The position numbers and the translations under genes were made by a program. From positions 2,914,001-2,978,000 of the forward strand of contig NC_018025.1 of assembly GCF_000266945.1 (NCBI RefSeq): a DNA stretch of 64,000 bases. Direction: 5' to 3'. The DNA comes from Desulfomonile tiedjei DSM 6799. Its GTDB lineage: Bacteria > Desulfobacterota > Desulfomonilia > Desulfomonilales > Desulfomonilaceae. Positions 4,170-19,227 of the stretch are shown here, piece after piece (position 1 is the stretch's first letter; each line of letters begins with the position of its first letter). The notes below the pieces were generated by a model. The model worked only from the letters and a program-made list of their open reading frames with translations. It was not told where the DNA came from and searched no databases.

Positions 4170-6020
4170 GTGGCAAGTGAGACTATTCCGGTAGCCCGTT
4201 ATGAAGGTAATGGAAAATGCAGGTTTTGTGTTTGGGCTCCCATCAGAAATGCCGTAGAACTGCACATTGTATCGGCACAGGAACGCTTCATCACGTTAGA
4301 CCGAGACGATCGGGGCTATTATTCCGCGACTGCAACGGATGTACATCCTGGTGACCTCTATTTTTATCGCCTCGATCGTGAAGAAGAGTTTCCCGACCCC
4401 GCTTCACGGTTCCAACCCCAGGGGGTGCACGGGCCTTCGCAAGTTATGAGTTCCGAATATGCGTGGAAGAACGATGCTTGGCGCGGAATTCCGTTGAAGG
4501 AATACATTTTGTACGAATTGCACGTTGGAAGCTTCACTCCCGAAGGAACATTCGATGGTGTAGAAAAAAGAGTTGCGGAACTGAGAGATCTCGGAGTCAC
4601 AGCACTGGAAATTATGCCTGTGGCACAATTTCCGGGGGAACGAAATTGGGGATATGACGGTGTTTACCCATTTGCGGTTCAAAATTCCTACGGTGGACCT
4701 GAAGGCCTTAAAAGGCTTGTTGATGCATGTCATGGTGCAGGTTTGGCCGCAGTTCTGGATGTGGTTTACAATCACCTGGGACCCGAAGGAAGTTATCTGA
4801 GTAAATTCGGGCCTTATTTTACTTCGCGCTATCATACTCCGTGGGGCGACGCCGTAAATTTTGACGGCCCATACAGTGATGAGGTCAGGCGTTACTTCAT
4901 ACAAAATGCTTTATATTGGCTCGAAGAATTTCGATTCGATGCTCTCCGCCTTGATGCCATTCACGGCATTCTCGATTTTTCGGCTAAACCATTTCTTGAA
5001 GAACTGTCGAGTGCAGTACATGACCTGAGAGAGCGTACCAATCGCCACATTTACTTGATCGCTGAATGTGACCGAAACGATTCTCGTGTGACTCTGCCCG
5101 GAGCTTGCGGTGGATACGGAATCGATGCCCAGTGGAACGATGATTTTCATCATGCATTACACGTTCTGCTCACCAGTGAGAATCAAGGTTACTATGCGGA
5201 TTTTGGAAGCCTCACCCATATGGCGAAAGCCTACAGGGAAGGATTCGTCTATTCGGGACAATACTCGATTTTCAGGCAACGCAGTCACGGAATACCATCA
5301 ACCATGCTAACAGGGGAACAGTTGGTCGTATGCAGTCAGAACCACGATCAGGTGGGCAACAGGCTTCTGGGCGATCGGCTGACATCTCTTGTACCCGAAG
5401 ATGCTTTGAGGCTTGCGGCCGGTGCCGTGATCCTCTCTCCTTTCATTCCTCTCCTTTTCATGGGGGAAGAATATGGCGAGAAAGCTCCATTCCAATATTT
5501 TGTAAGCCATTCAGATCCCGATCTCGTGCGTGCAGTCAGGGAAGGGAGAAAAATGGAATTTGAGGCTTTCAGGTGGCAGGGGGAATGTCCGGATCCTCAA
5601 TCACAAGCCATTTTCCAGACTGCGCAACTTACCCCATCCCTGAAAGAAGCTGCTCCTCATGACAAAATGTATGCGTATTATCGGAAACTCATCGATCTAC
5701 GCAAGACAGTGCAGTCCTTGGCCGACCTTGATAAAGAGAGTATGGAAGTCACTGAATATGAAGCTCAAAACGTGCTTGTCTTAAGGCGCTGGGCACTGGA
5801 CGACGAAGTAATTGAGATCCTTCATTTCAGTGCAAGTTCTTCTTCAATTACGCTGCAGATTCCTTCCGGAACATGGAATACGATATTAGATTCAGGCGAT
5901 CCGGTCTGGGGGGGGCATGGGATCAGCCTGGACGATGAATTCATATCCAGGGGAGAAATAGTGACACGTGTCCATCCATATGCGTTCATAGTCTTGAGAA
6001 AGATGAGGTCTGCAGTGTAA
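4170..6020 (+). CDS. treZ: Malto-oligosyltrehalose trehalohydrolase (GH13)
   Basis: TreZ releases trehalose from maltooligosyltrehalose made by TreY. The 616-residue length and layout fit the family: an N-terminal CBM48/E-set domain (about 1-95, with RFCVWAP), a GH13 barrel and a C-terminal beta domain. All four GH13 regions are visible: DVVYNH, FDALRLDAIH with nucleophile Asp262, LIAECD with acid/base Glu299, and SQNHDQ with Asp393. The GTG at 4170 follows a GGGGGA ribosome site. Its stop overlaps the next start as TAATG, so the GH57 gene is translationally coupled. No treY is in the window. Glycogen branching enzyme GlgB is related, but the short CBM48 and the NHDQVGNR region favour TreZ. 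Confidence 0.87.
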   Translation: MASETIPVARYEGNGKCRFCVWAPIRNAVELHIVSAQERFITLDRDDRGYYSATATDVHPGDLYFYRLDREEEFPDPASRFQPQGVHGPSQVMSSEYAWKNDAWRGIPLKEYILYELHVGSFTPEGTFDGVEKRVAELRDLGVTALEIMPVAQFPGERNWGYDGVYPFAVQNSYGGPEGLKRLVDACHGAGLAAVLDVVYNHLGPEGSYLSKFGPYFTSRYHTPWGDAVNFDGPYSDEVRRYFIQNALYWLEEFRFDALRLDAIHGILDFSAKPFLEELSSAVHDLRERTNRHIYLIAECDRNDSRVTLPGACGGYGIDAQWNDDFHHALHVLLTSENQGYYADFGSLTHMAKAYREGFVYSGQYSIFRQRSHGIPSTMLTGEQLVVCSQNHDQVGNRLLGDRLTSLVPEDALRLAAGAVILSPFIPLLFMGEEYGEKAPFQYFVSHSDPDLVRAVREGRKMEFEAFRWQGECPDPQSQAIFQTAQLTPSLKEAAPHDKMYAYYRKLIDLRKTVQSLADLDKESMEVTEYEAQNVLVLRRWALDDEVIEILHFSASSSSITLQIPSGTWNTILDSGDPVWGGHGISLDDEFISRGEIVTRVHPYAFIVLRKMRSAV

Positions 6021-8449
6021 TGGAAAAATTTGTGTGCATTCACGGCCATTTTTATCAGCCGCCCCGAGAGAATCCTTGGCTTGAAGCAATTGAAGTGCAA
6101 GATTCCGCTTATCCTTATCATGACTGGAATGAACGGATAACTGCCGAATGTTACGGACCCAATGGGACTGCCCGCATTTTTGACATGGAAGGCAGAATTG
6201 TAGACATCACAAATAACTATTCGAAAATGAGCTTCAACTTCGGTCCGACTCTCCTCGATTGGATGCAAAAGGAACGACCGAGACCGTATGAGTCCATTAT
6301 CGAAGCGGATCGTTTGAGCATGGAACGTTTTGGCGGCCATGGGTCGGCCATGGCTCAAGTTTACAATCACATGATCCTGCCGTTGGGCAATACTGCAGAC
6401 AAATACACGCAAATACGGTGGGGCGTGCGCGATTTCGAGACGAGATTCGGGCGCAAACCTGAAGGCATGTGGCTCGCGGAAACGGCCGTGGATCTCGAGA
6501 GCCTCGATCTGATGGCCGAGCAAGGCCTGAAGTTCACCATATTGGCACCTAACCAGGCCAGCAGAGTTCGTCACCTGCAAAGTGATGACTGGCAGGACGT
6601 CAGTGGAAGCACAATAGACCCCACAACAGCGTATAAGATCGTACTCCCGTCCGGACGAGAGATAGCTTTATTCTTTTATGACGGTCCCATCTCCAGGGCC
6701 ATTGCTTTCGAACGACTCCTCATAAAAGGGGAAATTCTGGCTGACAGACTGATGGGAGCATTTTCAGAAGAAAGGCAGCGGCCTCAACTCGTAAACATAG
6801 CCACTGATGGGGAAAGTTATGGGCATCACCACAAGTATGGGGACATGGCCCTTGCCTATGCCATGAAGGCGCTCGAGGAGAATCCTTCCGTTCAGCTCAC
6901 CAATTACAGCAAGTTTCTTGCCGAGAATCCTCCGGAGTACCAGGTCGAGATTTATGAGAACTCCTCATGGAGCTGCGTGCACGGAGTCGAACGCTGGCGT
7001 TCCGATTGCGGATGCAACTCGGGGGGATATCCTTCCTGGAATCAGAGCTGGAGAACCCCACTTCGAGAAGCTTTGGACTGGCTGAGAGATGCAGTTGCAG
7101 GTCCATTCGAAAAGACTGCAGGTAAACTGTTGAAAGACCCCACCGCTGCGAGAAATGACTATATCGACATTATCCTGGATCGTTCGGACGACAGTGTGAA
7201 TGAATTCCTCAGCCGTCATGCCAAATCGGATTTCAGTTACGAGAATAGAGTGAATTTCTTCAAACTGATGGAGCTTCAGAGACATGCGATGCTCATGTAC
7301 ACGAGCTGTGGATGGTTTTTCGACGAATTATCCGGCATAGAAACGGTCCAGGTGATTCAGTACGCCGGTCGAGTGGTTCAGCTTGCTACGGAGCTATTTG
7401 GGGATTCTTTCAGAGATCCATTTCTCGATCTCTTGGAACAAGCCAAAAGCAACATACCCGAACACGCCGATGGGAAGAATATCTATCTAGAATGGGTCGA
7501 ACCCACAATTCTGGATCTCGGCAAGGTTGCGGCTCACTACGCGATAAGCTCGATTTTTGAGGAGTTCGGCGAAGAAACGTCAATAAACGCGTATTCGGCA
7601 ACTCGTCAACATTTCAACATGTCTCAAGCAGGCAGAGCGAAATTGGCGGTCGGTGAAGTGGAAGTCACTTCCAAGATTACCGCCGAGTCGGACAAATTCT
7701 GTTTTGGAGTGGTCCACCTCGGAGATCACAATATTAGCTGCGGCATAGAGCAATGCATACAGGGACCGGCATTCGACCAATTGGTTGAGGAGATCATCAA
7801 TCCGTTCAGTGCTGCCGATTTCCCGGAGACCATTCGCATACTTGACAAGAATTTTGGAGATTCCCCTTTTTCTCTCACATCTCTGTTCCGTGATGAACAA
7901 CGGAAAGTCTTGAAACTCATTCTTCAGCCGACTCTGGACGAAGCGCATGCAGCCTATTCGGCGCTTTACGAGCACCATGCGCTTCTGATGCGTTTCCTGC
8001 ACGGTTCGGGAACTCCGCAACCCAAAGAACTGGTCATGATGACAAATATCGTTCTGAACACTCGCCTGAGAGCGGCGCTGGAAAACGATCGACTCGACAT
8101 TCAGAATATAGAGTTGCTCCTCGAAGAGGCACGGCTTGCCGGCGTGCAACCTGATGCTCCAACATTGGCGTACGTACTCGGGGATACGATGGAATCCCTC
8201 GCTGATGCACTCTTGGAAGAACCCGAAAATCTGGAGACTGCGGAGAAACTGGAAAATGCCGCAACAGCATTGCGTGTTTTGCCATTTGAGGTCAACACCT
8301 GGAAAATCCAGAACACCTGCTTCACAATACTCAAGGAGCATTACTCCGGCATGCTCGACAAAGCCAAGAAAGGAGATGAAGAAGCACAGGAGTGGGTGCG
8401 CCTGCTGTGTTCGGTTGCGGAAAAACTCCTGATCAGGGTGCCCCAATAA
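6020..8449 (+). CDS. GH57-type glycoside hydrolase with DUF3536
   Basis: An 809-residue cytoplasmic protein of the GH57 alpha-amylase/alpha-mannosidase superfamily fused to DUF3536. The N-terminus CIHGHFYQPPRE is the GH57 opening strand. MWLAETAVD carries the presumed nucleophile Glu, and IATDGESYGHHHKYG a conserved acidic cluster. The following DUF3536 region has a SCVHGVERWRSDCGC segment with clustered cysteines. The ATG overlaps the treZ stop by one base (TAATG), so both proteins are probably made together and act on the same alpha-glucan or malto-oligosaccharides. Its exact reaction has not been defined to my knowledge. Confidence 0.85.
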   Translation: MEKFVCIHGHFYQPPRENPWLEAIEVQDSAYPYHDWNERITAECYGPNGTARIFDMEGRIVDITNNYSKMSFNFGPTLLDWMQKERPRPYESIIEADRLSMERFGGHGSAMAQVYNHMILPLGNTADKYTQIRWGVRDFETRFGRKPEGMWLAETAVDLESLDLMAEQGLKFTILAPNQASRVRHLQSDDWQDVSGSTIDPTTAYKIVLPSGREIALFFYDGPISRAIAFERLLIKGEILADRLMGAFSEERQRPQLVNIATDGESYGHHHKYGDMALAYAMKALEENPSVQLTNYSKFLAENPPEYQVEIYENSSWSCVHGVERWRSDCGCNSGGYPSWNQSWRTPLREALDWLRDAVAGPFEKTAGKLLKDPTAARNDYIDIILDRSDDSVNEFLSRHAKSDFSYENRVNFFKLMELQRHAMLMYTSCGWFFDELSGIETVQVIQYAGRVVQLATELFGDSFRDPFLDLLEQAKSNIPEHADGKNIYLEWVEPTILDLGKVAAHYAISSIFEEFGEETSINAYSATRQHFNMSQAGRAKLAVGEVEVTSKITAESDKFCFGVVHLGDHNISCGIEQCIQGPAFDQLVEEIINPFSAADFPETIRILDKNFGDSPFSLTSLFRDEQRKVLKLILQPTLDEAHAAYSALYEHHALLMRFLHGSGTPQPKELVMMTNIVLNTRLRAALENDRLDIQNIELLLEEARLAGVQPDAPTLAYVLGDTMESLADALLEEPENLETAEKLENAATALRVLPFEVNTWKIQNTCFTILKEHYSGMLDKAKKGDEEAQEWVRLLCSVAEKLLIRVPQ

Positions 8450-8459
8450 CGGAAAAAGC

Positions 8460-9302
8460 TTAATGGCGACGGATAAGTCGGGAGAAGTTCTCGCCAAGAA
8501 TTGCCTTTCGCACGTCTTCACCGATTCCCGATTGTTCTATGTGTTTCACGTAACGGACAACGGAAAGCAAAGGAAAATCGCTGCCGAACAGTATCTTGTC
8601 AGGTCCCAGTATTTTTGTTGCTATGTCATACACGCGAGCGTCATACAAGTACGGTGAAGCGGCAGTATCAAAGTATGTTCTTGCGAGCACGCCGGCTACT
8701 TCCGGCATGAGACCGTACACGAAAATTCCTCCGCCGAAATGCGCGAGAATGAAAGTTACCTCCGGATTGGCTGCTATGACCTGTAACAAACCTTGAAAAT
8801 CCACTGATATTTTACCAGGATACTCGTGTCCCACCGGTTCGTTGACATGAAGCATTACGGGAATCCCGGCCGATCGGGCCATTCCGAGACAAGGGGCCAG
8901 AGCCTCGAAACCCGCTGTGCTCCACCCTCCATGGTACATGGCAAGCTCGCCGATTCCTGCAAATCCGGCTTTGATGATTCTCTCCGTCTCCAGATACGCG
9001 CGGTCACCCGCTGCAGGGGAAAGCACCGCAAATGGATAGATCCTCGCAGGATTGCGCTGAGCAAACTCCCAGACCTCGTCATTGTTCTTGCTGATAAGGT
9101 CATGCGATTCCCAGGGAAAACCGAAAACCACGGCCTTTTCGATTCCCGAGTTATCCATGTAGGAGATTATATCTTCTTCCGATGCGAGCCTGGCTTTGGG
9201 CGAGGAATACAGACTTCCAAAGGCTTCGTCCGAGTGAACGTACATGGTGCGGTCGCTGCGCACTTCTTTTGGCAAAAGGTGTACATGGCAATCTACAATC
9301 AT
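8460..9302 (-). CDS. Amidohydrolase family (amidohydrolase_2) metal-dependent hydrolase
   Basis: A 280-residue TIM-barrel hydrolase. Seen: VDCHVHLLP at the very N-terminus (metal-binding His pair), HVNEPVGH, ILAHFGGG and LFGSDFP near the C-terminus. These match the amidohydrolase_2 family of metal-dependent decarboxylases and hydrolases. The ATG at 9302 sits behind a good ribosome site (ACGGAGGTTGG); an upstream in-frame start at 9377 would add an unconserved tail. It converges on the GH57 gene with only 10 bases between. The substrate is unknown. Confidence 0.82.
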   Translation of the reverse strand: MIVDCHVHLLPKEVRSDRTMYVHSDEAFGSLYSSPKARLASEEDIISYMDNSGIEKAVVFGFPWESHDLISKNNDEVWEFAQRNPARIYPFAVLSPAAGDRAYLETERIIKAGFAGIGELAMYHGGWSTAGFEALAPCLGMARSAGIPVMLHVNEPVGHEYPGKISVDFQGLLQVIAANPEVTFILAHFGGGIFVYGLMPEVAGVLARTYFDTAASPYLYDARVYDIATKILGPDKILFGSDFPLLSVVRYVKHIEQSGIGEDVRKAILGENFSRLIRRH

Positions 9303-9725
9303 AGAACCAACCTCCGTGAGTTTGGAGCCATCAGCATTAAGGGAAAGAATACAATAAGAGCGACAAGATTCAATCATTTTACCAGGCGATAGGACAACGA
9401 TGGATTTTCGGATGTCTTAATTCCTCAACATTACTTTGGTGGAATGATTGCAATACGGGAGCCGCTGCAATATATTTTTGTCTGCATCTATCTCCGACAT
9501 GAGGTGTCTCAAAATTACAATGCCCAGATGCTACGAATATTGTAGGAGACGATTCAATGCGGTGGAAACGCATAGTACGATACTACACCCCGATTCACAA
9601 AAATTATTGCAGGCAGTGAATAACTTAATTTGAAGGTAAATGACTACGCAATCCTGGAACCTCCAGGTATCGATGAACAGATGCTTGGCCGGGAAACGTC
9701 ACAATAGATCACGGGATAGGTAGAT
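9303..9725. other. Intergenic region between divergent amidohydrolase and MES genes
   Basis: This 423-base AT-rich gap should hold promoters for both divergent genes. The only clear structure is a short hairpin at 9653-9667 (CCTGGA, loop ACC, TCCAGG), 59 bases before the MES start. I looked for a Moco riboswitch-like fold and could not convince myself of one. No credible gene is present. Confidence 0.5.
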
Positions 9726-12700
9726 ATGCAGTGTTCAAATAGACCTCAGGAAGGGATCTTTCGTCGGGCCATGTGCGGAATTTGCCCTGCAGGGTGCTGG
9801 GTAGAAGTAAGGTACGACGATTCCGGCCGCATCGTCGAAGTCCGCGAGGATTCCCAATCGGATTACGGAATGATCTGCACGCTTGGCAGGCATTCCCCTG
9901 AGATCGTCTATTCTCCCGATCGCTTGCTGCATCCGATGCGGAGAGTCGGCCCCAAAGGAACGTATGCATTTGAACGAATCTCCTGGGAAAATGCATATGA
10001 TGTCATTGCAGACCGGCTCACATCCATAAAACAGGAGTACGGTCCCGAGGCGAACGCAATCTACACCGGACGCGGCAGTTTCGAACTGGCTGAATGCGAC
10101 GTGTATCAACCCCGCGGAGTTGCAGTATCCAGCGCATCAAGTGTGCTGTTTCCCTTCGATTCACCGAACACTCTCGGAGTAGGAGCACTTTGTTACGTTT
10201 CATTTGCCATGATAGCTCCCCATGTGACCATGGGGGGAATGCTGATCGACATGTTTTCCGATCTGGAGAATGCAGAACTGATCGTGGTATGGGGCGCAAA
10301 CCCTGCCACGGACTCCCCTCCTCTCGATTTCAACCGCATCCAGAAGGCTCGGAGTCGAGGAACTGAGGTCGTTGTGATCGATCCCCGGCGCACGGGCACG
10401 GCTGAAGCAACGGAAGCTGAATGGATTCCCATTCGCCCCGGTACAGACGGTGCTTTAGCGCTTGGAATGTGCAATGTGTTGATCGATGAGGATCTGTTCG
10501 ATGAAGCATTCGTGGATGAATGGACGGTCGGATTTGAACAGTTCTCTCAGCATGTTCAGCATTTTCAGCCCGAGGTGGTGCAGAAGATTACCGGAGTGCC
10601 TGCCGAAAAGGTCCGCTCGTTGGCTCGTCGAATCGTGTCAGCACGCGGTGCTGCCCCGGTCATGTACAGCGGTCTGGAATACAGCGATGGAGGAACTCAA
10701 TCGATTCGAGCTACATTCGTGCTCTGGGCTCTCGCAGGGCAATTGGATGTCCCCGGAGGACGTTGCTTTTCCATGTCAACCAATGAATTCCCCATGAACA
10801 GGGAAGGGCATCTCCCCAACCCTGATGTACGAAAAGCACTCGGTCGAGATCGTTTCCCCATTTATAGCCTCTATCGCGGCGAATCCCATGCAATTGCACT
10901 TCCGGAAGCGGTGTTGAAAGCTCAACCGTATCCTATCAAATCGCTGATTGTCGTTGGGGGTTCCATCATCACTGCGTGGCCGCAGCCGGCAATCTGGCGG
11001 GACACGCTTCAGGCATTGGATTTCCTCGTATGCGTGGACCGCTTTCTCACGGCAGATGCTGCATATGCGGACATCGTTCTTCCTGCCGCCACGTACTATG
11101 AAGCTACATCATACATGCGGTACGGCCCGGTATTTCGTATCAGGGAAAAAGTCATCGAACCACTCGGTGAATCCCGCCACGGCTTCTTCATCATGGCGCA
11201 GTTGGCAGCTCGCCTTGGGTACGGGCATTTGTATCCCCAGAGCGAAGAGGAACTTATCGAGCATGCACTCGAAGGGTCAGGATTCAGCCTCGAAGAAGTT
11301 CGGGCCTCCGGCGGAACCGTTCAGTTGCAGCCCGAAATGATGCAATACAAGAAGTGGCAAAAAGGATTGCTCCGCAAAGACGGAGCTCCCGGTTTCGCGA
11401 CTCCTACCGGAAAATTTGAAATCGCCTCCACTGTTCTCGAAGAGCACGGATACGATGCTCTTCCCATTTACACGGAGCCTTCCGAAAGTCCATTATCCCG
11501 ACCGGATCTCACGGGCGAATTTCCTCTGGTCTTCACTTCAGGTTCCCGCGTCCGGACCGATTTCCGGTCACAGTTTCACAACGTGCCCGGGCTCATGAAA
11601 AAACGGCCTGAACCCACGGTGATGATGAACACTTTGGATGCCGAGTCGCGAGGTATTGTCAACGGAGATCTGGTGGAGATCGTGACTCAGCGGGGTCGCG
11701 TTCGGTATCGAGCACAGGTTACGGATGGAATTATGCAGGGAGTGGTGGACGCAGACATGGGCGGCGGCGGACCGCTCGGACCGCAAGCATGGCAGGACTG
11801 CAATGTCAATGAGCTTACCGATCTGGGCAAATACGATCCGATTTCGGGTTTTCCCGTGTACAAAGCTCTCCTCTGCAATGTGTCCAAAGTAAAAGATGGC
11901 GACAGAGCAGTTGTCCCTGAAACGATCGATCCCGAGATCGAAACCGTCAGAAGACAATCCAGCGCAAAGAACTCGACCGGTCGGCGAATTATCTATCTCG
12001 ATCACAATGCGACTACTCCCATGCATGCTGAAGTTCTGGATGAGATGCTGGAGCATTTGAGAAAAACCGGGGGCAATCCCTCGAGCATACATGGTCCCGG
12101 GAATCATGCGCGTGAAGCAGTTGAAGCAGCACGAAGGAAAGTGGCTCGTCTCCTGAACTGCACGGCCCGGAGGATCGTTTTCACGGGGGGAGGTTCGGAG
12201 GCGGACAATTTGGCGATTAAAGGAGTGGCTCTCGCGTCAGGAATCAACGGGAACCGCATTATAACGTCTTCGGTCGAACACCCTGCGGTCCTCGGGACAT
12301 GCAAATGGTTGGAGACCCTGGGGGTTCAGGTAACGTATCTCGGTGTGGACAGTGAAGGAAGAGTCAGTCCGGATGATTTGAGAAAGGCCTTCACTCCAAA
12401 TACTGTTCTTGTAAGCATTATGATGGCAAACAATGAAACCGGAACGCTCCAGCCTATCAAGGAATTGGCCGAAGAAGCTCATTCTCGCGGAGTCCTCTTC
12501 CACACCGATGCGGTTCAGGCGGTCGGCAAAATTCCTGTCGACATCGAAGAACTGCAGGTGGACCTCCTGACGCTGTCTGCTCACAAGATTCAGGGGCCCA
12601 AGGGAATAGGAGCAATTTTCATCCGCAAGGGCTGCTCTCTTGCGCCCCTTGTGCACGGGGGAAAACAGGAATACGGACTGCGTGCGGGAACCGAGAACGT

Positions 12701-13142
12701 CCCGGCAATTGCGGGTCTGGGCAAAGCAGCGGAAATTGCCGTGAAGCGGTTGCCCGAAATGGAGAACGTTCGCAGACTGAGAGACAGGCTGGAAAGCGGA
12801 ATATTTGAAATAATTCCAACCGCAAGACGAAACGGGCCTCTTCTGGACAGACTCCCTAACACTCTGAATATGACTTTACCGGGACTGCGTGGAGAATCCG
12901 TCGTTATGACCCTGGACACGCGGGGCATCGCACTTTCGTCCGGCTCGGCATGTCGCGCCGGTTCACCTGAACCCTCTCATGCTTTGTTGGCAATGGGCAT
13001 GTCTGAAGAGAGTGCTCACTGTGCTGTCCGTTTCTCTCTCGGTCCTGACAATACAGAAGAAGAGATCGATGCCACGCTCGAGAGTATTCGATGGATGATT
13101 GTGAATATGTCCGAAGGGGTTCGGTTTGCGCCATGTCGATAG
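9726..13142 (+). CDS. Metallopterin-dependent ergothioneine synthase (molybdopterin oxidoreductase fused to cysteine desulfurase)
   Basis: A 1138-residue fusion. Residues 1-740 are a DMSO-reductase/acetylene-hydratase-type molybdopterin enzyme: the [4Fe-4S] motif C17-x2-C20-x3-C24-x26-C51, then the bis-MGD-binding folds (VVWGANPATDSPPLDF, VIDPRRTGTAEATEAEW, DIVLPAATYYE). Residues 750-1138 are a complete IscS/NifS-type cysteine desulfurase: YLDHNATTP, SSVEHPAV, the PLP lysine K954 in SAHKIQGPKG and the catalytic C1076 in SSGSACRAG. This module order matches the metallopterin-dependent ergothioneine synthase described from Caldithrix abyssi, where the desulfurase feeds cysteine sulfur to the metallopterin, which places it on trimethylhistidine. 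The egtD 56 bases downstream supports the call. No Tat signal, so cytoplasmic. The alternative is a formate-dehydrogenase-like enzyme with built-in sulfuration, which I think is less likely. Confidence 0.85.
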   Translation: MQCSNRPQEGIFRRAMCGICPAGCWVEVRYDDSGRIVEVREDSQSDYGMICTLGRHSPEIVYSPDRLLHPMRRVGPKGTYAFERISWENAYDVIADRLTSIKQEYGPEANAIYTGRGSFELAECDVYQPRGVAVSSASSVLFPFDSPNTLGVGALCYVSFAMIAPHVTMGGMLIDMFSDLENAELIVVWGANPATDSPPLDFNRIQKARSRGTEVVVIDPRRTGTAEATEAEWIPIRPGTDGALALGMCNVLIDEDLFDEAFVDEWTVGFEQFSQHVQHFQPEVVQKITGVPAEKVRSLARRIVSARGAAPVMYSGLEYSDGGTQSIRATFVLWALAGQLDVPGGRCFSMSTNEFPMNREGHLPNPDVRKALGRDRFPIYSLYRGESHAIALPEAVLKAQPYPIKSLIVVGGSIITAWPQPAIWRDTLQALDFLVCVDRFLTADAAYADIVLPAATYYEATSYMRYGPVFRIREKVIEPLGESRHGFFIMAQLAARLGYGHLYPQSEEELIEHALEGSGFSLEEVRASGGTVQLQPEMMQYKKWQKGLLRKDGAPGFATPTGKFEIASTVLEEHGYDALPIYTEPSESPLSRPDLTGEFPLVFTSGSRVRTDFRSQFHNVPGLMKKRPEPTVMMNTLDAESRGIVNGDLVEIVTQRGRVRYRAQVTDGIMQGVVDADMGGGGPLGPQAWQDCNVNELTDLGKYDPISGFPVYKALLCNVSKVKDGDRAVVPETIDPEIETVRRQSSAKNSTGRRIIYLDHNATTPMHAEVLDEMLEHLRKTGGNPSSIHGPGNHAREAVEAARRKVARLLNCTARRIVFTGGGSEADNLAIKGVALASGINGNRIITSSVEHPAVLGTCKWLETLGVQVTYLGVDSEGRVSPDDLRKAFTPNTVLVSIMMANNETGTLQPIKELAEEAHSRGVLFHTDAVQAVGKIPVDIEELQVDLLTLSAHKIQGPKGIGAIFIRKGCSLAPLVHGGKQEYGLRAGTENVPAIAGLGKAAEIAVKRLPEMENVRRLRDRLESGIFEIIPTARRNGPLLDRLPNTLNMTLPGLRGESVVMTLDTRGIALSSGSACRAGSPEPSHALLAMGMSEESAHCAVRFSLGPDNTEEEIDATLESIRWMIVNMSEGVRFAPCR

Positions 13143-13198
13143 CATCTAATCAATGTATCCGTCCGAAAGGGCGGAAGTTTCAAAGGAGAGAGTCTCCG

Positions 13199-14203
13199 AT
13201 GTTTCAGCTTTCCCCACAAATACCATCCGGTTTCAGGAAATACGATCATCTGAAAACCCGTATGGCCAGAGCCATTGCAGAAGACGTCGCAACAGGGCTG
13301 AGTGCGTCTCAGAAATCTATTCCGAGCAAGTACTTCTATGATGAACGCGGATCAATGCTGTTCGAAGAAATCTGTCGATTACCGGAGTATTATCCTGCCA
13401 GGACTGAAATATCGTTATTGCGGCAGAATTCCCCGTCAATCGTCCGGAGCTTCGGCCACGGCTATCTCGTGGAATTGGGGTCTGGCGCCAATTGGAAAAT
13501 CAGGTATCTCATTGATGCCCTTGGGCCGGAGAAACGGTCAAAGACGTGCTACGTACCGGTTGACGTCAGCAGCAGCGCTCTGGAGGCTTCGGCAATGGAA
13601 CTGCTCAGAATGTATCCAGGGTTCTGTGTTCAGGGACTGGTTGCCGACTTCACCACCGATCTGCATCTGTTACCCGATGACCGGCGGAAGTTGATCCTGT
13701 TCCTCGGGAGCACCATCGGAAATTTCGACGATGCGCAAACCGAATTATTCTTACGTGCTCTGTCCAATACGATGCAGAATGAGGACAGATTTCTGCTTGG
13801 ACTCGATCTTGTAAAACCCGTTGAAATTCTTGAAGCTGCATACAATGATTCGCGACAGATAACTGCCGAATTCAACAAAAATATTCTCCATGTGGTCAAT
13901 CGTGAACTGGATGCAGATTTCAACCAGAACGATTTCGAACATCTCGCGATGTACATTGAGGCAAAGAACGAAATTCAAATGCATCTCAAAGCAGTTCGAC
14001 CGGTGGAGGTTCACATCGGCAAGCTGCACATGACAGTCTTTTTTGAAGAAGGGGAGACGATACTCACGGAAATATCGAGAAAATTCACCTTTGAATCGGC
14101 TGAAAAAATGCTTCATGCAGCAGACCTGGAGATTACAGACTGGCGTACAGATGCCGCAGGATGGTTTGCTCACGCAGAAATCGTCCACAGGAATGGGGGA
14201 TAG
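13199..14203 (+). CDS. egtD: L-histidine N-alpha-methyltransferase
   Basis: EgtD uses three S-adenosylmethionines to turn histidine into N-alpha-trimethylhistidine (hercynine), the substrate for ergothioneine synthesis. At 334 residues it is near the usual ~320. Seen: the N-terminal KYFYDERGSMLFEEI and LPEYYPARTE signature, the SAM-binding LVELGSGANWK, YVPVDVSSSALE, and LILFLGSTIGNF. The ATG at 13199 follows AAAGGAGAG; the frame is open further upstream into the MES 3' end, but without a ribosome site. The pair is probably one transcript. No egtB, egtC or egtE gene lies nearby, as expected if sulfur is added by the upstream protein. Confidence 0.9.
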   Translation: MFQLSPQIPSGFRKYDHLKTRMARAIAEDVATGLSASQKSIPSKYFYDERGSMLFEEICRLPEYYPARTEISLLRQNSPSIVRSFGHGYLVELGSGANWKIRYLIDALGPEKRSKTCYVPVDVSSSALEASAMELLRMYPGFCVQGLVADFTTDLHLLPDDRRKLILFLGSTIGNFDDAQTELFLRALSNTMQNEDRFLLGLDLVKPVEILEAAYNDSRQITAEFNKNILHVVNRELDADFNQNDFEHLAMYIEAKNEIQMHLKAVRPVEVHIGKLHMTVFFEEGETILTEISRKFTFESAEKMLHAADLEITDWRTDAAGWFAHAEIVHRNGG

Positions 14204-17770: not shown

Positions 17771-18558
17771 AATTCAAGTTCAGAGCAATTCTCGCCGATC
17801 TTGACGGCACGATCAACCGAGGAAACCGATTGATCCCCGGAGCGGATCATGTGTACCGAAAGCTATCGGCTAATGGTTTTCAGTGGGTGTTCATATCCAA
17901 TAATGCCATGCGCAAGGCCTCGGAAATCGCACAGAAGATCAGATTCCTCGGGCTCCCGATACAAGACAGTCAGGTGGTAACTTCCGCTTCGGCTCTCTTC
18001 CACACACTCTCGAAATATCACCGCGGCGCCAGCATCATGGCTATAGCTGAAGAAAGCCTCATCGCGGGAATTCAAGATTCCGGATGCACGATTACGACGG
18101 ATCCTTTCGATACAGCCATAGTAGTCGTCGCTCGCGATTCGAGACTCACGTATGAAAAGATCGAAAACGCGTTTTTTGCAATTCAAAACGGAGCTCTCTT
18201 TTGGGCGACAAACACGGACCCGACATTCCCTGTTCCAGGCGGTTTCGTACCCGGAGCGGGATGCATGGTTGCCGCAGTTGCCGCCCCAGTAGGACGCCCT
18301 CCCGATCGCGTCTTCGGCAAACCGTTTTCCGATATAGCCGAAATTGTGATCGACCAGCTTGGGGTTCCCAGGGAGACTTGCCTGGTTGTGGGCGATAGAA
18401 TGGACACGGATATTCTGTTTGCCAGGAACTCCGGATTCAAAAGCGCCCTGGTCCTGACGGGAGCCACGTCTAGAGAAGATTTGTCCCAATATACATATGC
18501 CCCTGACTTCGTGCTGGAAAGTATCGGAGACATAGAGAAAATATTGCCCCCGAAATGA
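17767..18558 (+). CDS. HAD-superfamily phosphatase (NagD-like, class IIA)
   Basis: A 263-residue HAD hydrolase of the NagD/PGP type. Motif I is ILADLDGTI (nucleophile Asp and acid/base Asp), motif II is VFISNNAMR, the class IIA cap lies between, and motif IV is VVGDRMDTDI with the two metal-binding acidic residues. The family dephosphorylates nucleotides, phosphoglycolate or phosphosugars; the substrate is not evident. The ATG overlaps the TPR gene stop (ATGA). Confidence 0.85.
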   Translation: MKFKFRAILADLDGTINRGNRLIPGADHVYRKLSANGFQWVFISNNAMRKASEIAQKIRFLGLPIQDSQVVTSASALFHTLSKYHRGASIMAIAEESLIAGIQDSGCTITTDPFDTAIVVVARDSRLTYEKIENAFFAIQNGALFWATNTDPTFPVPGGFVPGAGCMVAAVAAPVGRPPDRVFGKPFSDIAEIVIDQLGVPRETCLVVGDRMDTDILFARNSGFKSALVLTGATSREDLSQYTYAPDFVLESIGDIEKILPPK

Positions 18559-18567
18559 GCCGGTCTT

Positions 18568-18596
18568 TTGTGTCCACAGCGAACCGGTGGTATAAT
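18568..18596 (+). promoter_or_regulatory. Promoter of the glutaredoxin-FTR operon
   Basis: TTGTGT, 17 bases, and a perfect TATAAT -10 box, 51 bases before the glutaredoxin-like start. The position just after the HAD stop suggests the redox pair has its own promoter. Confidence 0.6.
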
Positions 18597-18647
18597 TTAG
18601 GTAGCCGTAATTTCTATCCATTGCTGAAGATAGGAAAAGGTGCTCAC

Positions 18648-18902
18648 ATGGCTAAACGGGTGAAGATGTATGGAATTAGTACGTGCACCCATAGCAGGTG
18701 TGCGAAAGAATTTCTTAGCTTTCTCGGGGTAGAATTCGAGTGTACCGATCTGGATCTGATCTCCAAGGAGATGGCAGGTCTGCTCATGGAAGAAGTGAAG
18801 CGACTAAACGGTAGATGCTCGTTTCCAACGATCCTCATAGGTGACAAAGTCGTGGTCGGTTGTAGGAAAGAACTCATTCAGGAGGCGCTTGAGAATGACT
18901 GA
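18648..18902 (+). CDS. Glutaredoxin-like protein with CTHSRC motif
   Basis: An 84-residue thioredoxin-fold protein. The active-site region reads ISTCTHSRCAKEF, that is C-x4-C in place of the usual CPYC (C-x2-C), followed by the cis-Pro strand CSFPTILIGDKVVVG. Family members dithiol-exchange with protein partners. The ATG at 18648 follows AGGAAAAGG. Its last 8 bases overlap the start of the ferredoxin-dependent reductase gene, so the two are almost surely made together and act as an electron-transfer pair: ferredoxin to reductase to this protein (inference). Confidence 0.78.
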   Translation: MAKRVKMYGISTCTHSRCAKEFLSFLGVEFECTDLDLISKEMAGLLMEEVKRLNGRCSFPTILIGDKVVVGCRKELIQEALEND

Positions 18903-19227
18903 AGCCGAAAAGCTCTATGATATGCTCAAGAAATATCAGGAGCAGAAAGGTTACTGTTTCAACGATGATAAGGAGAAGGTCCTGGAATTACTGGAGGCTC
19001 TTCTCGTGAACAAGAAGCGATACGGATATATGAGTTGCCCGTGTCGATTGGCCAAGAACGATCGACAGCAAGATAAAGACATCATCTGCCCATGCGTCTA
19101 TCGCGAGCCGGATGTAGAAGAATATGGGAGTTGTTACTGCAACTTGTACGTATCCAGCGAATGGAATCGGAAAGAAATTCCTCAGGAGTATGTTCCCGAA
19201 AGGCGTCCCCTCGAATTGATGTTCTAA
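18895..19227 (+). CDS. Ferredoxin:thioredoxin/disulfide reductase catalytic subunit
   Basis: A 110-residue FTR beta-type subunit, which uses a [4Fe-4S] cluster next to a redox disulfide to reduce thioredoxin-like partners with ferredoxin electrons. The signature is present: CPC, 14 residues, CPC, 12 residues, then CYC. This spacing matches the archaeal and anaerobic-bacterial disulfide reductases more than plant FTR (CPC-x16-CPC-x8-CHC). There is no variable alpha subunit, as in other bacteria. Start ATG 18895 follows GGAGG inside the upstream gene. Confidence 0.87.
   Translation: MTEAEKLYDMLKKYQEQKGYCFNDDKEKVLELLEALLVNKKRYGYMSCPCRLAKNDRQQDKDIICPCVYREPDVEEYGSCYCNLYVSSEWNRKEIPQEYVPERRPLELMF

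Follow-up and report, generated by a model that had tools for sequence, protein, structure and literature searches.

A metallopterin–desulfurase fusion gene beside egtD in Desulfomonile tiedjei, very probably an ergothioneine synthase, and its desulfurase-free relatives

What does a gene do that joins a metallopterin enzyme to a cysteine desulfurase? Such a gene lies in a 64,000-nucleotide stretch of the Desulfomonile tiedjei DSM 6799 genome (NC_018025.1, positions 2,914,001 to 2,978,000, which we refer to as the window), where one unbroken open reading frame (ORF) encodes a [4Fe-4S]/metallopterin module joined to a complete NifS/IscS-type cysteine desulfurase. It very probably encodes a metallopterin-dependent ergothioneine synthase (MES), which would use a molybdenum or tungsten cofactor to carry cysteine sulfur to trimethylhistidine, a known oxygen-independent route to ergothioneine. 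As a convincing new member and orthologue of a known, recent enzyme family, the gene itself is of low novelty; what makes it valuable is a host that is probably tractable, together with its family context, the newer part of this study being a desulfurase-free sister clade that stands beside an OvsM/OvoM-like methyltransferase.

The fused gene and the adjoining egtD

Four Pfam domains follow one another in the protein, Molybdop_Fe4S4 (23.1 bits, barely above the cut-off of 22.7), Molybdopterin (E-value 3.9e-41), Molydop_binding (2.2e-20) and Aminotran_5 (5.5e-81), so both halves are present in one frame, as the initial annotation of this DNA had claimed. The nearest solved structure to the N-terminal module is acetylene hydratase (2e7z, 1.4e-75 and, in a separate search, 8.3e-75), which likewise has a cysteine at the ligand position and a [4Fe-4S] cluster, and Cys17, Cys20, Cys24 and Cys51 fit the iron–sulfur motif, in agreement with the acetylene-hydratase-type signatures first noted there. 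The C-terminal half is closest to solved cysteine desulfurases (e.g. 9wep, 9.1e-105) and shares with NifS and IscS the pyridoxal phosphate (PLP) lysine and the persulfide cysteine, with Lys954 and Cys1076 exactly at the positions originally given (in the motifs SAHKIQG and SGSACRAG). It passes the loose IscS subfamily model NF002806 (314 bits, cut-off 304) and scores 488 bits with TIGR03402 (NifS), under the equivalog cut-off of 530.75; among the best 25 of 53 NCBIfam families all except NF002806 remained under cut-off, and none of them describes the fusion.

The same architecture has been published, as the initial annotation stated, for the MES of Caldithrix abyssi (CaMES; Beliaeva and Seebeck 2022, PMC9516567), an acetylene-hydratase-like module fused to a desulfurase that forms ergothioneine in E. 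coli. The excerpted text of PMC9516567, on which all statements about CaMES here are based, names Cys14/17/21/48, the metal ligand Cys153, Lys952, Cys1074 and the relay cysteine Cys1135; mutation of Lys952, Cys1074, Cys1135 or Cys153 nearly abolished ergothioneine, mutation of Cys1097 had a two-fold effect only. The window protein has the two modules in the same order and, shifted by +2 to +3, what we take to be the corresponding residues at 17/20/24/51/156/954/1076/1099/1137, which were paired off by their spacing, their motifs and comparison with the Calditrichota homologues L061 and L067. It differs from CaMES in the phylum of its host.

Conservation of these residues was followed in 44 unique homologous ORFs of at least 700 codons and above a score limit, shorter fragments being dropped, and every key residue was retained wherever an ORF covered it, save in the two ORFs (L022 and L136) described below. 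The position of Cys156 is a cysteine in all 42 ORFs that cover it, and it aligns with a cysteine of 2e7z which we take to be the tungsten ligand of acetylene hydratase. A cysteine is described as the metal ligand of that enzyme in PMC9516567. Equally constant are Lys954 (42/42) and Cys1076 (39/39), and at Cys1099 a cysteine is found in 38 of 39 covering ORFs and a glycine in one (L022), which fits the published near-dispensability of Cys1097 in CaMES. The protein ends in ...RFAPCR, the penultimate Cys1137 having gone unmentioned in the initial annotation, as had the adjoining egtD; a Cys-Arg or Cys-Lys end is present in 38 of the 39 homologous ORFs that reach a stop there, and the Cys-Arg end is missing from three free-standing desulfurases of the host genome (three of four matches checked). 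The exception, L136, comes from a 62%-complete draft genome (G117) and has an in-frame stop ahead of the cysteine tail, by error or decay.

The strongest support for an MES comes from that adjoining egtD, whose product is the predicted maker of the substrate trimethylhistidine. Starting 56 bases after the MES gene on the same strand, and preceded by a ribosome-binding-site-like AAAGGAGA, its product scores 349.2 bits with TIGR03438 (above the equivalog cut-off of 290.9), has EgtD 4pim as its best match in the PDB (2.1e-70) and is the sole PF10017 match in the host genome at E ≤ 0.001. The start at 13199 was preferred to one at 13091, which would make egtD overlap the MES gene. A promoter and terminator scan stayed at the level of shuffled sequence (7 found against a mean of 4.2, and 6 against 5.1), so that it is spacing and strand which suggest a shared transcript. 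In the excerpt of PMC9516567, egtD is described as a neighbour of MES for 55 genomes, among which D. tiedjei itself may be included.

In the pathway that we propose, EgtD would methylate histidine to trimethylhistidine, and the PLP-dependent desulfurase, through Lys954, would draw sulfur from cysteine to form a persulfide on Cys1076. Cys1137 in the C-terminal tail would pass this sulfur to a bis-molybdopterin guanine dinucleotide molybdenum or tungsten centre held by Cys156, the C2 of the imidazole would attack the resulting metal-sulfido group to give ergothioneine and a reduced metal, and the metal would be resulfurated for the next turnover. The metal-sulfido chemistry is the proposal made for CaMES in PMC9516567, and by analogy with that enzyme we infer the same activity in D. 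tiedjei, as well as the direction in which sulfur moves and the metal used. The locus thus suggests ergothioneine production by D. tiedjei.

Table 1 Features of the fused gene, its predicted key residues and egtD, in window coordinates.
Feature	Position	Strand	Basis
MES orthologue (metallopterin-dependent ergothioneine synthase, predicted)	9726..13142	+	1138 amino acids (aa), stop included, one unbroken ORF
[4Fe-4S] domain, aa 14-63, Cys17/Cys20/Cys24/Cys51	9765..9914	+	Pfam Molybdop_Fe4S4 and cysteine positions
Molybdopterin oxidoreductase domain, aa 66-495	9921..11210	+	Pfam Molybdopterin; nearest solved relative 2e7z
Cys156, predicted Mo/W protein ligand	10191..10193	+	Aligned with Cys of acetylene hydratase; taken as CaMES Cys153
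Molybdopterin dinucleotide binding domain, aa 602-714	11529..11867	+	Pfam Molydop_binding
Cys717, end of metallopterin module	11874..11876	+	Conserved, 44/44 unique MES ORFs
Cysteine desulfurase domain, aa 756-1116	11991..13073	+	Pfam Aminotran_5; NifS/IscS models
Lys954, PLP Schiff-base lysine, in SAHKIQG	12585..12587	+	Motif position
Cys1076, persulfide cysteine of desulfurase, in SGSACRAG	12951..12953	+	Motif position
Cys1099	13020..13022	+	Taken as CaMES Cys1097
Cys1137, penultimate, second relay cysteine (predicted)	13134..13136	+	Taken as CaMES Cys1135
Ribosome-binding-site-like sequence ahead of egtD ATG	13182..13189	+	Read from sequence
egtD, L-histidine N-alpha-methyltransferase, predicted to make trimethylhistidine, 334 aa	13199..14203	+	TIGR03438, PDB match

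Distribution, co-occurrence and alternative functions

In a scan of named genomes, the best 80 of 197 relatives comprised 30 MES-type loci (an MES-type metallopterin module or an MES-type desulfurase, several of them ending at contig edges) and 50 free-standing desulfurases. The 30 loci, nearly all from draft metagenome genomes, include Desulfomonilaceae, Zixiibacteriota, Nitrospirota, Chloroflexota, Aminicenantes, Myxococcales, Actinomycetes, Calditrichota, Planctomycetota and one Methanomicrobiaceae archaeon. egtD was found in the flanks of 20 of them, and lies upstream of MES in four (L051, L055, L057 and L058). Distances between metallopterin modules followed those between EgtD proteins (r = 0.68 over 28 rows, a value reached in none of 9999 permutations; shared species descent was not removed from this figure). 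In a quick tree, which had neither L071 nor L073 (see below) among its rows, 38 MES metallopterin modules including those of Calditrichota formed one clade on one side of a branch with a Shimodaira–Hasegawa-like approximate likelihood ratio test (SH-aLRT) value of 97, so the fusion to a desulfurase looks like one event.

Co-occurrence was analysed in 395 evenly sampled genomes of the host phylum, where EgtD was present in all 15 fusion genomes (one of which, G082, holds the fusion as a contig-end fragment) against 6 of the 380 others (Fisher p ~1e-22, the genomes being related and not independent). Within these EgtD genomes the EgtB model (E ≤ 1e-40) matched in 0 of 14 MES genomes, G082 being left out, versus 6 of 6 EgtD-only genomes, from which we conclude that MES and EgtB-like genes substitute for one another; three of the six EgtB-like genes were over cut-off, two were full-length but scored below the cut-off (335 and 244 bits), and one was split in two. 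EgtB and EanB, as described in the excerpt of PMC9516567, are unrelated proteins which reach the same product as MES from the same EgtD-made substrate. The host genome itself gave five TIGR03440 matches, the best at 77 bits against a cut-off of 360, and 4 of 14 control genomes were similar. The initial proposal of an MES is supported in each feature that could be checked, the common clade with Calditrichota, the adjacent egtD and the EgtB scores under cut-off included.

The same counts bear on the possibility that the fusion directs this sulfur chemistry at another imidazole or heterocycle, the product of EgtD being used elsewhere. The sister metallopterin clades described below do pair with another methyltransferase, and the substrate may therefore shift in the wider family; against this, EgtD accompanies the fusion in every sampled genome, the six EgtD genomes that lack MES all carry an EgtB-like gene, and four MES homologues have published ergothioneine activity (PMC9516567, excerpt), which together leave a different substrate improbable. 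Less probable still is a desulfurase that merely matures the cofactor, by providing a sulfido ligand once in the manner of ABA3, on what would otherwise be an ordinary hydratase or oxidoreductase. Acetylene hydratase is indeed the nearest solved relative, and sulfuration of cofactors by desulfurases is known (PMC9516567, excerpt), but in the isotope exchange reported there an inactive desulfurase still allows sulfur to pass between ergothioneine and trimethylhistidine and a metal-ligand mutant does not, and the egtD linkage and the conserved terminal relay cysteine also count against this reading. Least credible of the three is a chance fusion of NifS to a formate dehydrogenase or to some other molybdoenzyme of respiration, which was rejected on profile scores, since Fdh-alpha (TIGR01591), although the top molybdoenzyme model among the best 25 of 53 NCBIfam families, gave 292.9 bits against a cut-off of 666.25, the remaining molybdoenzyme models in that set were far under their cut-offs and the fusion is present across many phyla. 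The case that the initial annotation had named as refuting an MES, closest homologues that are formate dehydrogenases with no desulfurase attached, fails on the same Fdh-alpha score.

Several observations weigh against an MES at this locus. In ten of the 30 MES loci the examined stretch contains no egtD; five of these ten are cut by contig ends (L059, L066, L069, L070 and L073) and five have room for it yet lack it (L049, L061, L062, L067 and L079), although in the genome of L049 (G008, a Desulfomonile tiedjei isolate) EgtD is found on a different contig. Two near-identical loci from lake drafts (98.5% DNA identity), L071 (271-3528) and L073 (678-2956), hold an MES-type module with 68–69% identity to that of the window and no desulfurase after it, L071 having egtD directly downstream, which implies that some members may manage without the fusion; frame breaks occur in each of the two ORFs, at different places, by error, decay or as a real variant, and the L071 genome is outside the 395-genome sample. 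Acetylene hydratase, which is without a desulfurase, catalyses a hydration (PMC9516567, excerpt), and the module alone is thus no proof of the reaction; the ergothioneine activity of the window protein is one that we infer from its sequence. The best MobA match of the host reached 95 bits against a cut-off of 151.85, which was also missed by 13 of 14 control genomes. Finally, an AlphaFold model of the full-length protein, built on an alignment of 30 sequences, had a mean predicted local distance difference test (pLDDT) score of 63.8 and a predicted template modelling (pTM) score of 0.46, with residues 105-178 around Cys156 below a pLDDT of 50, so that the metallopterin module is modelled too poorly to judge the geometry of the relay.

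Desulfurase-free relatives beside an OvsM/OvoM-like methyltransferase

Outside the window, two groups of metallopterin genes without a desulfurase branch next to the MES clade. The first, which we refer to as SAA (six rows; L029, L030, L151, L152, L154 and L155), is sister to MES and has 48–51% identity to the window module, the second, SAB (seven rows; L031, L032, L153, L156, L157, L158 and L159), lies outside MES and SAA and has 43–49% identity. In both groups the [4Fe-4S] cysteines, Cys156 and Cys717 are retained at every covered position. Cys717, the equivalent of which goes unmentioned in the excerpted text of PMC9516567, is common to the MES, SAA, SAB and MPB (see below) rows examined and to L005, L035 and L036, and is absent from L007 and L008. 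A comparison of 17 MES with six SAA rows gave 17 positions at which each group has its own fixed residue, including 134-136 and 155, where a leucine beside the metal ligand becomes a proline. EgtD was found in none of the 12 sample genomes that have SAA or SAB forms only, and on this count a split MES making ergothioneine is not supported among the standalone proteins of the sample, an idea which may be kept alive by L071 with its module, egtD and no desulfurase. Neither EgtD nor an OvoM-like gene was seen in the examined stretch of the SAB loci.

Directly upstream of the SAA gene, in six of six loci, is a methyltransferase gene of ~313 aa with a Trm112-like zinc domain in front (Trm112p in Pfam, over cut-off in L029 and slightly under in L030, the two of six scanned), the four cysteines of which are kept in 26 of 26 aligned relatives. 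The top NCBIfam family of the L029 protein is TIGR04345, the OvoA C-terminal 5-thiohistidine N-methyltransferase, at 113 bits; the cut-off of 170 is unmet by all eight relatives scanned out of 44 (76–113 bits, top family in each), and judged by these scores the protein is a relative, not a member, of the OvoA C-terminal/OvoM family. Its top PDB matches are OvsM (2.7e-26), OvoM (3.0e-20) and OvoA (3.3e-17), and with the L152 protein as query only OvsM (8.1e-18) and OvoM (4.4e-14) pass 1e-10.

Relatives of this methyltransferase at E ≤ 1e-25 occur in 44 of the 395 genomes, and all 44 loci were examined. A metallopterin gene lies immediately downstream on the same strand in 23 of them, comprising the six SAA genes and 17 of a further clade, MPB (L187, L200-L205, L207, L210, L213, L219, L223, L225, L228, L229, L235 and L236), which are 57–68% identical to L207 and only ~30% to the window module. 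SAA and MPB are not sister clades, and for both the nearest solved structure is acetylene hydratase. In ten others (L195, L197, L206, L211, L220, L221, L222, L226, L231 and L234) a B12-type radical S-adenosylmethionine (SAM) gene lies upstream of the methyltransferase instead, the one scanned being nearest to ApyD (270 bits, cut-off 750). Two of the 44 loci end at a contig edge downstream and nine have neither partner in the examined stretch (L230 and L232 being cut close upstream); both partners together were seen in none of the 44 stretches. In the methyltransferase tree the metallopterin pairing needs five changes, and is clustered rather than a single block. In two of the MPB loci, L201 (3925-10334) and L235, the methyltransferase is preceded by another metallopterin gene, more distantly related, which in L201 is flanked by a pair of related genes encoding 160 and 164 aa.

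As MES thiolates a methylated histidine, and relatives of its metallopterin module are paired with a relative of the thiohistidine methyltransferases, the most economical joint reading is that histidine might in these loci be thiolated at another ring position and then methylated. We tentatively suggest, as a possibility with the balance against it, that MES is one branch of a wider acetylene-hydratase-like set, several members of which pair with a methyltransferase for a histidine derivative, and that SAA or MPB proteins together with their methyltransferase produce ovothiol, or a related 5-thiohistidine or seleno compound, by an oxygen-independent metal-sulfido thiolation of histidine. The methyltransferase scores under its family cut-off in all eight proteins scanned, no desulfurase gene was seen close by on the same strand at the paired loci, and the ten loci with a radical SAM partner imply that the metallopterin protein may do something else, all of which count against ovothiol as the product. 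So does the presence of an ordinary OvoA in a paired genome (G127), the one over cut-off in 16 searched out of the 23 genomes with a methyltransferase–metallopterin pair. Ovothiol synthesis as described in the excerpt of PMC12631010 runs through the sulfoxide synthase OvoA, and the wider family is a concrete candidate for an oxygen-independent pathway of this type. It also bears on a remark in the excerpt of PMC9516567 that further unassigned molybdoenzymes may attach sulfur to heterocycles. In the open-licence literature we found no paper joining thiohistidine with molybdopterin.

Host genome and surrounding genes

No paper tying Desulfomonile to ergothioneine was found in the open-licence literature. 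The window gene would place an oxygen-independent ergothioneine route in a probably culturable anaerobe, where a role under anoxia or during brief oxygen exposure is testable in the native host. The host carries two genes for cytochrome bd subunit I (G000:C1:2461411-2462688 and 4978308-4979585), so the label of strict anaerobe needs care. A candidate second desulfurase fusion in the same genome, a 1163-aa open frame at G000:C1:4859307, was rejected, as it consists of a 380-aa NifS-like ORF and a separate 771-aa ORF read through one TGA, the latter being penicillin-binding-protein-like (named by eye).

Around the MES gene and egtD, a divergent amidohydrolase gene (8460-9377) lies upstream of MES, and a DnaJ gene and a MerR-like gene lie downstream, all without an evident link to it. 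Elsewhere in the window, a glutaredoxin-like gene is followed by the catalytic chain of a ferredoxin-thioredoxin reductase (18555-19227), and an alpha-amylase-type gene is followed by a GH57/DUF3536 gene with a one-base overlap (4170-8449).

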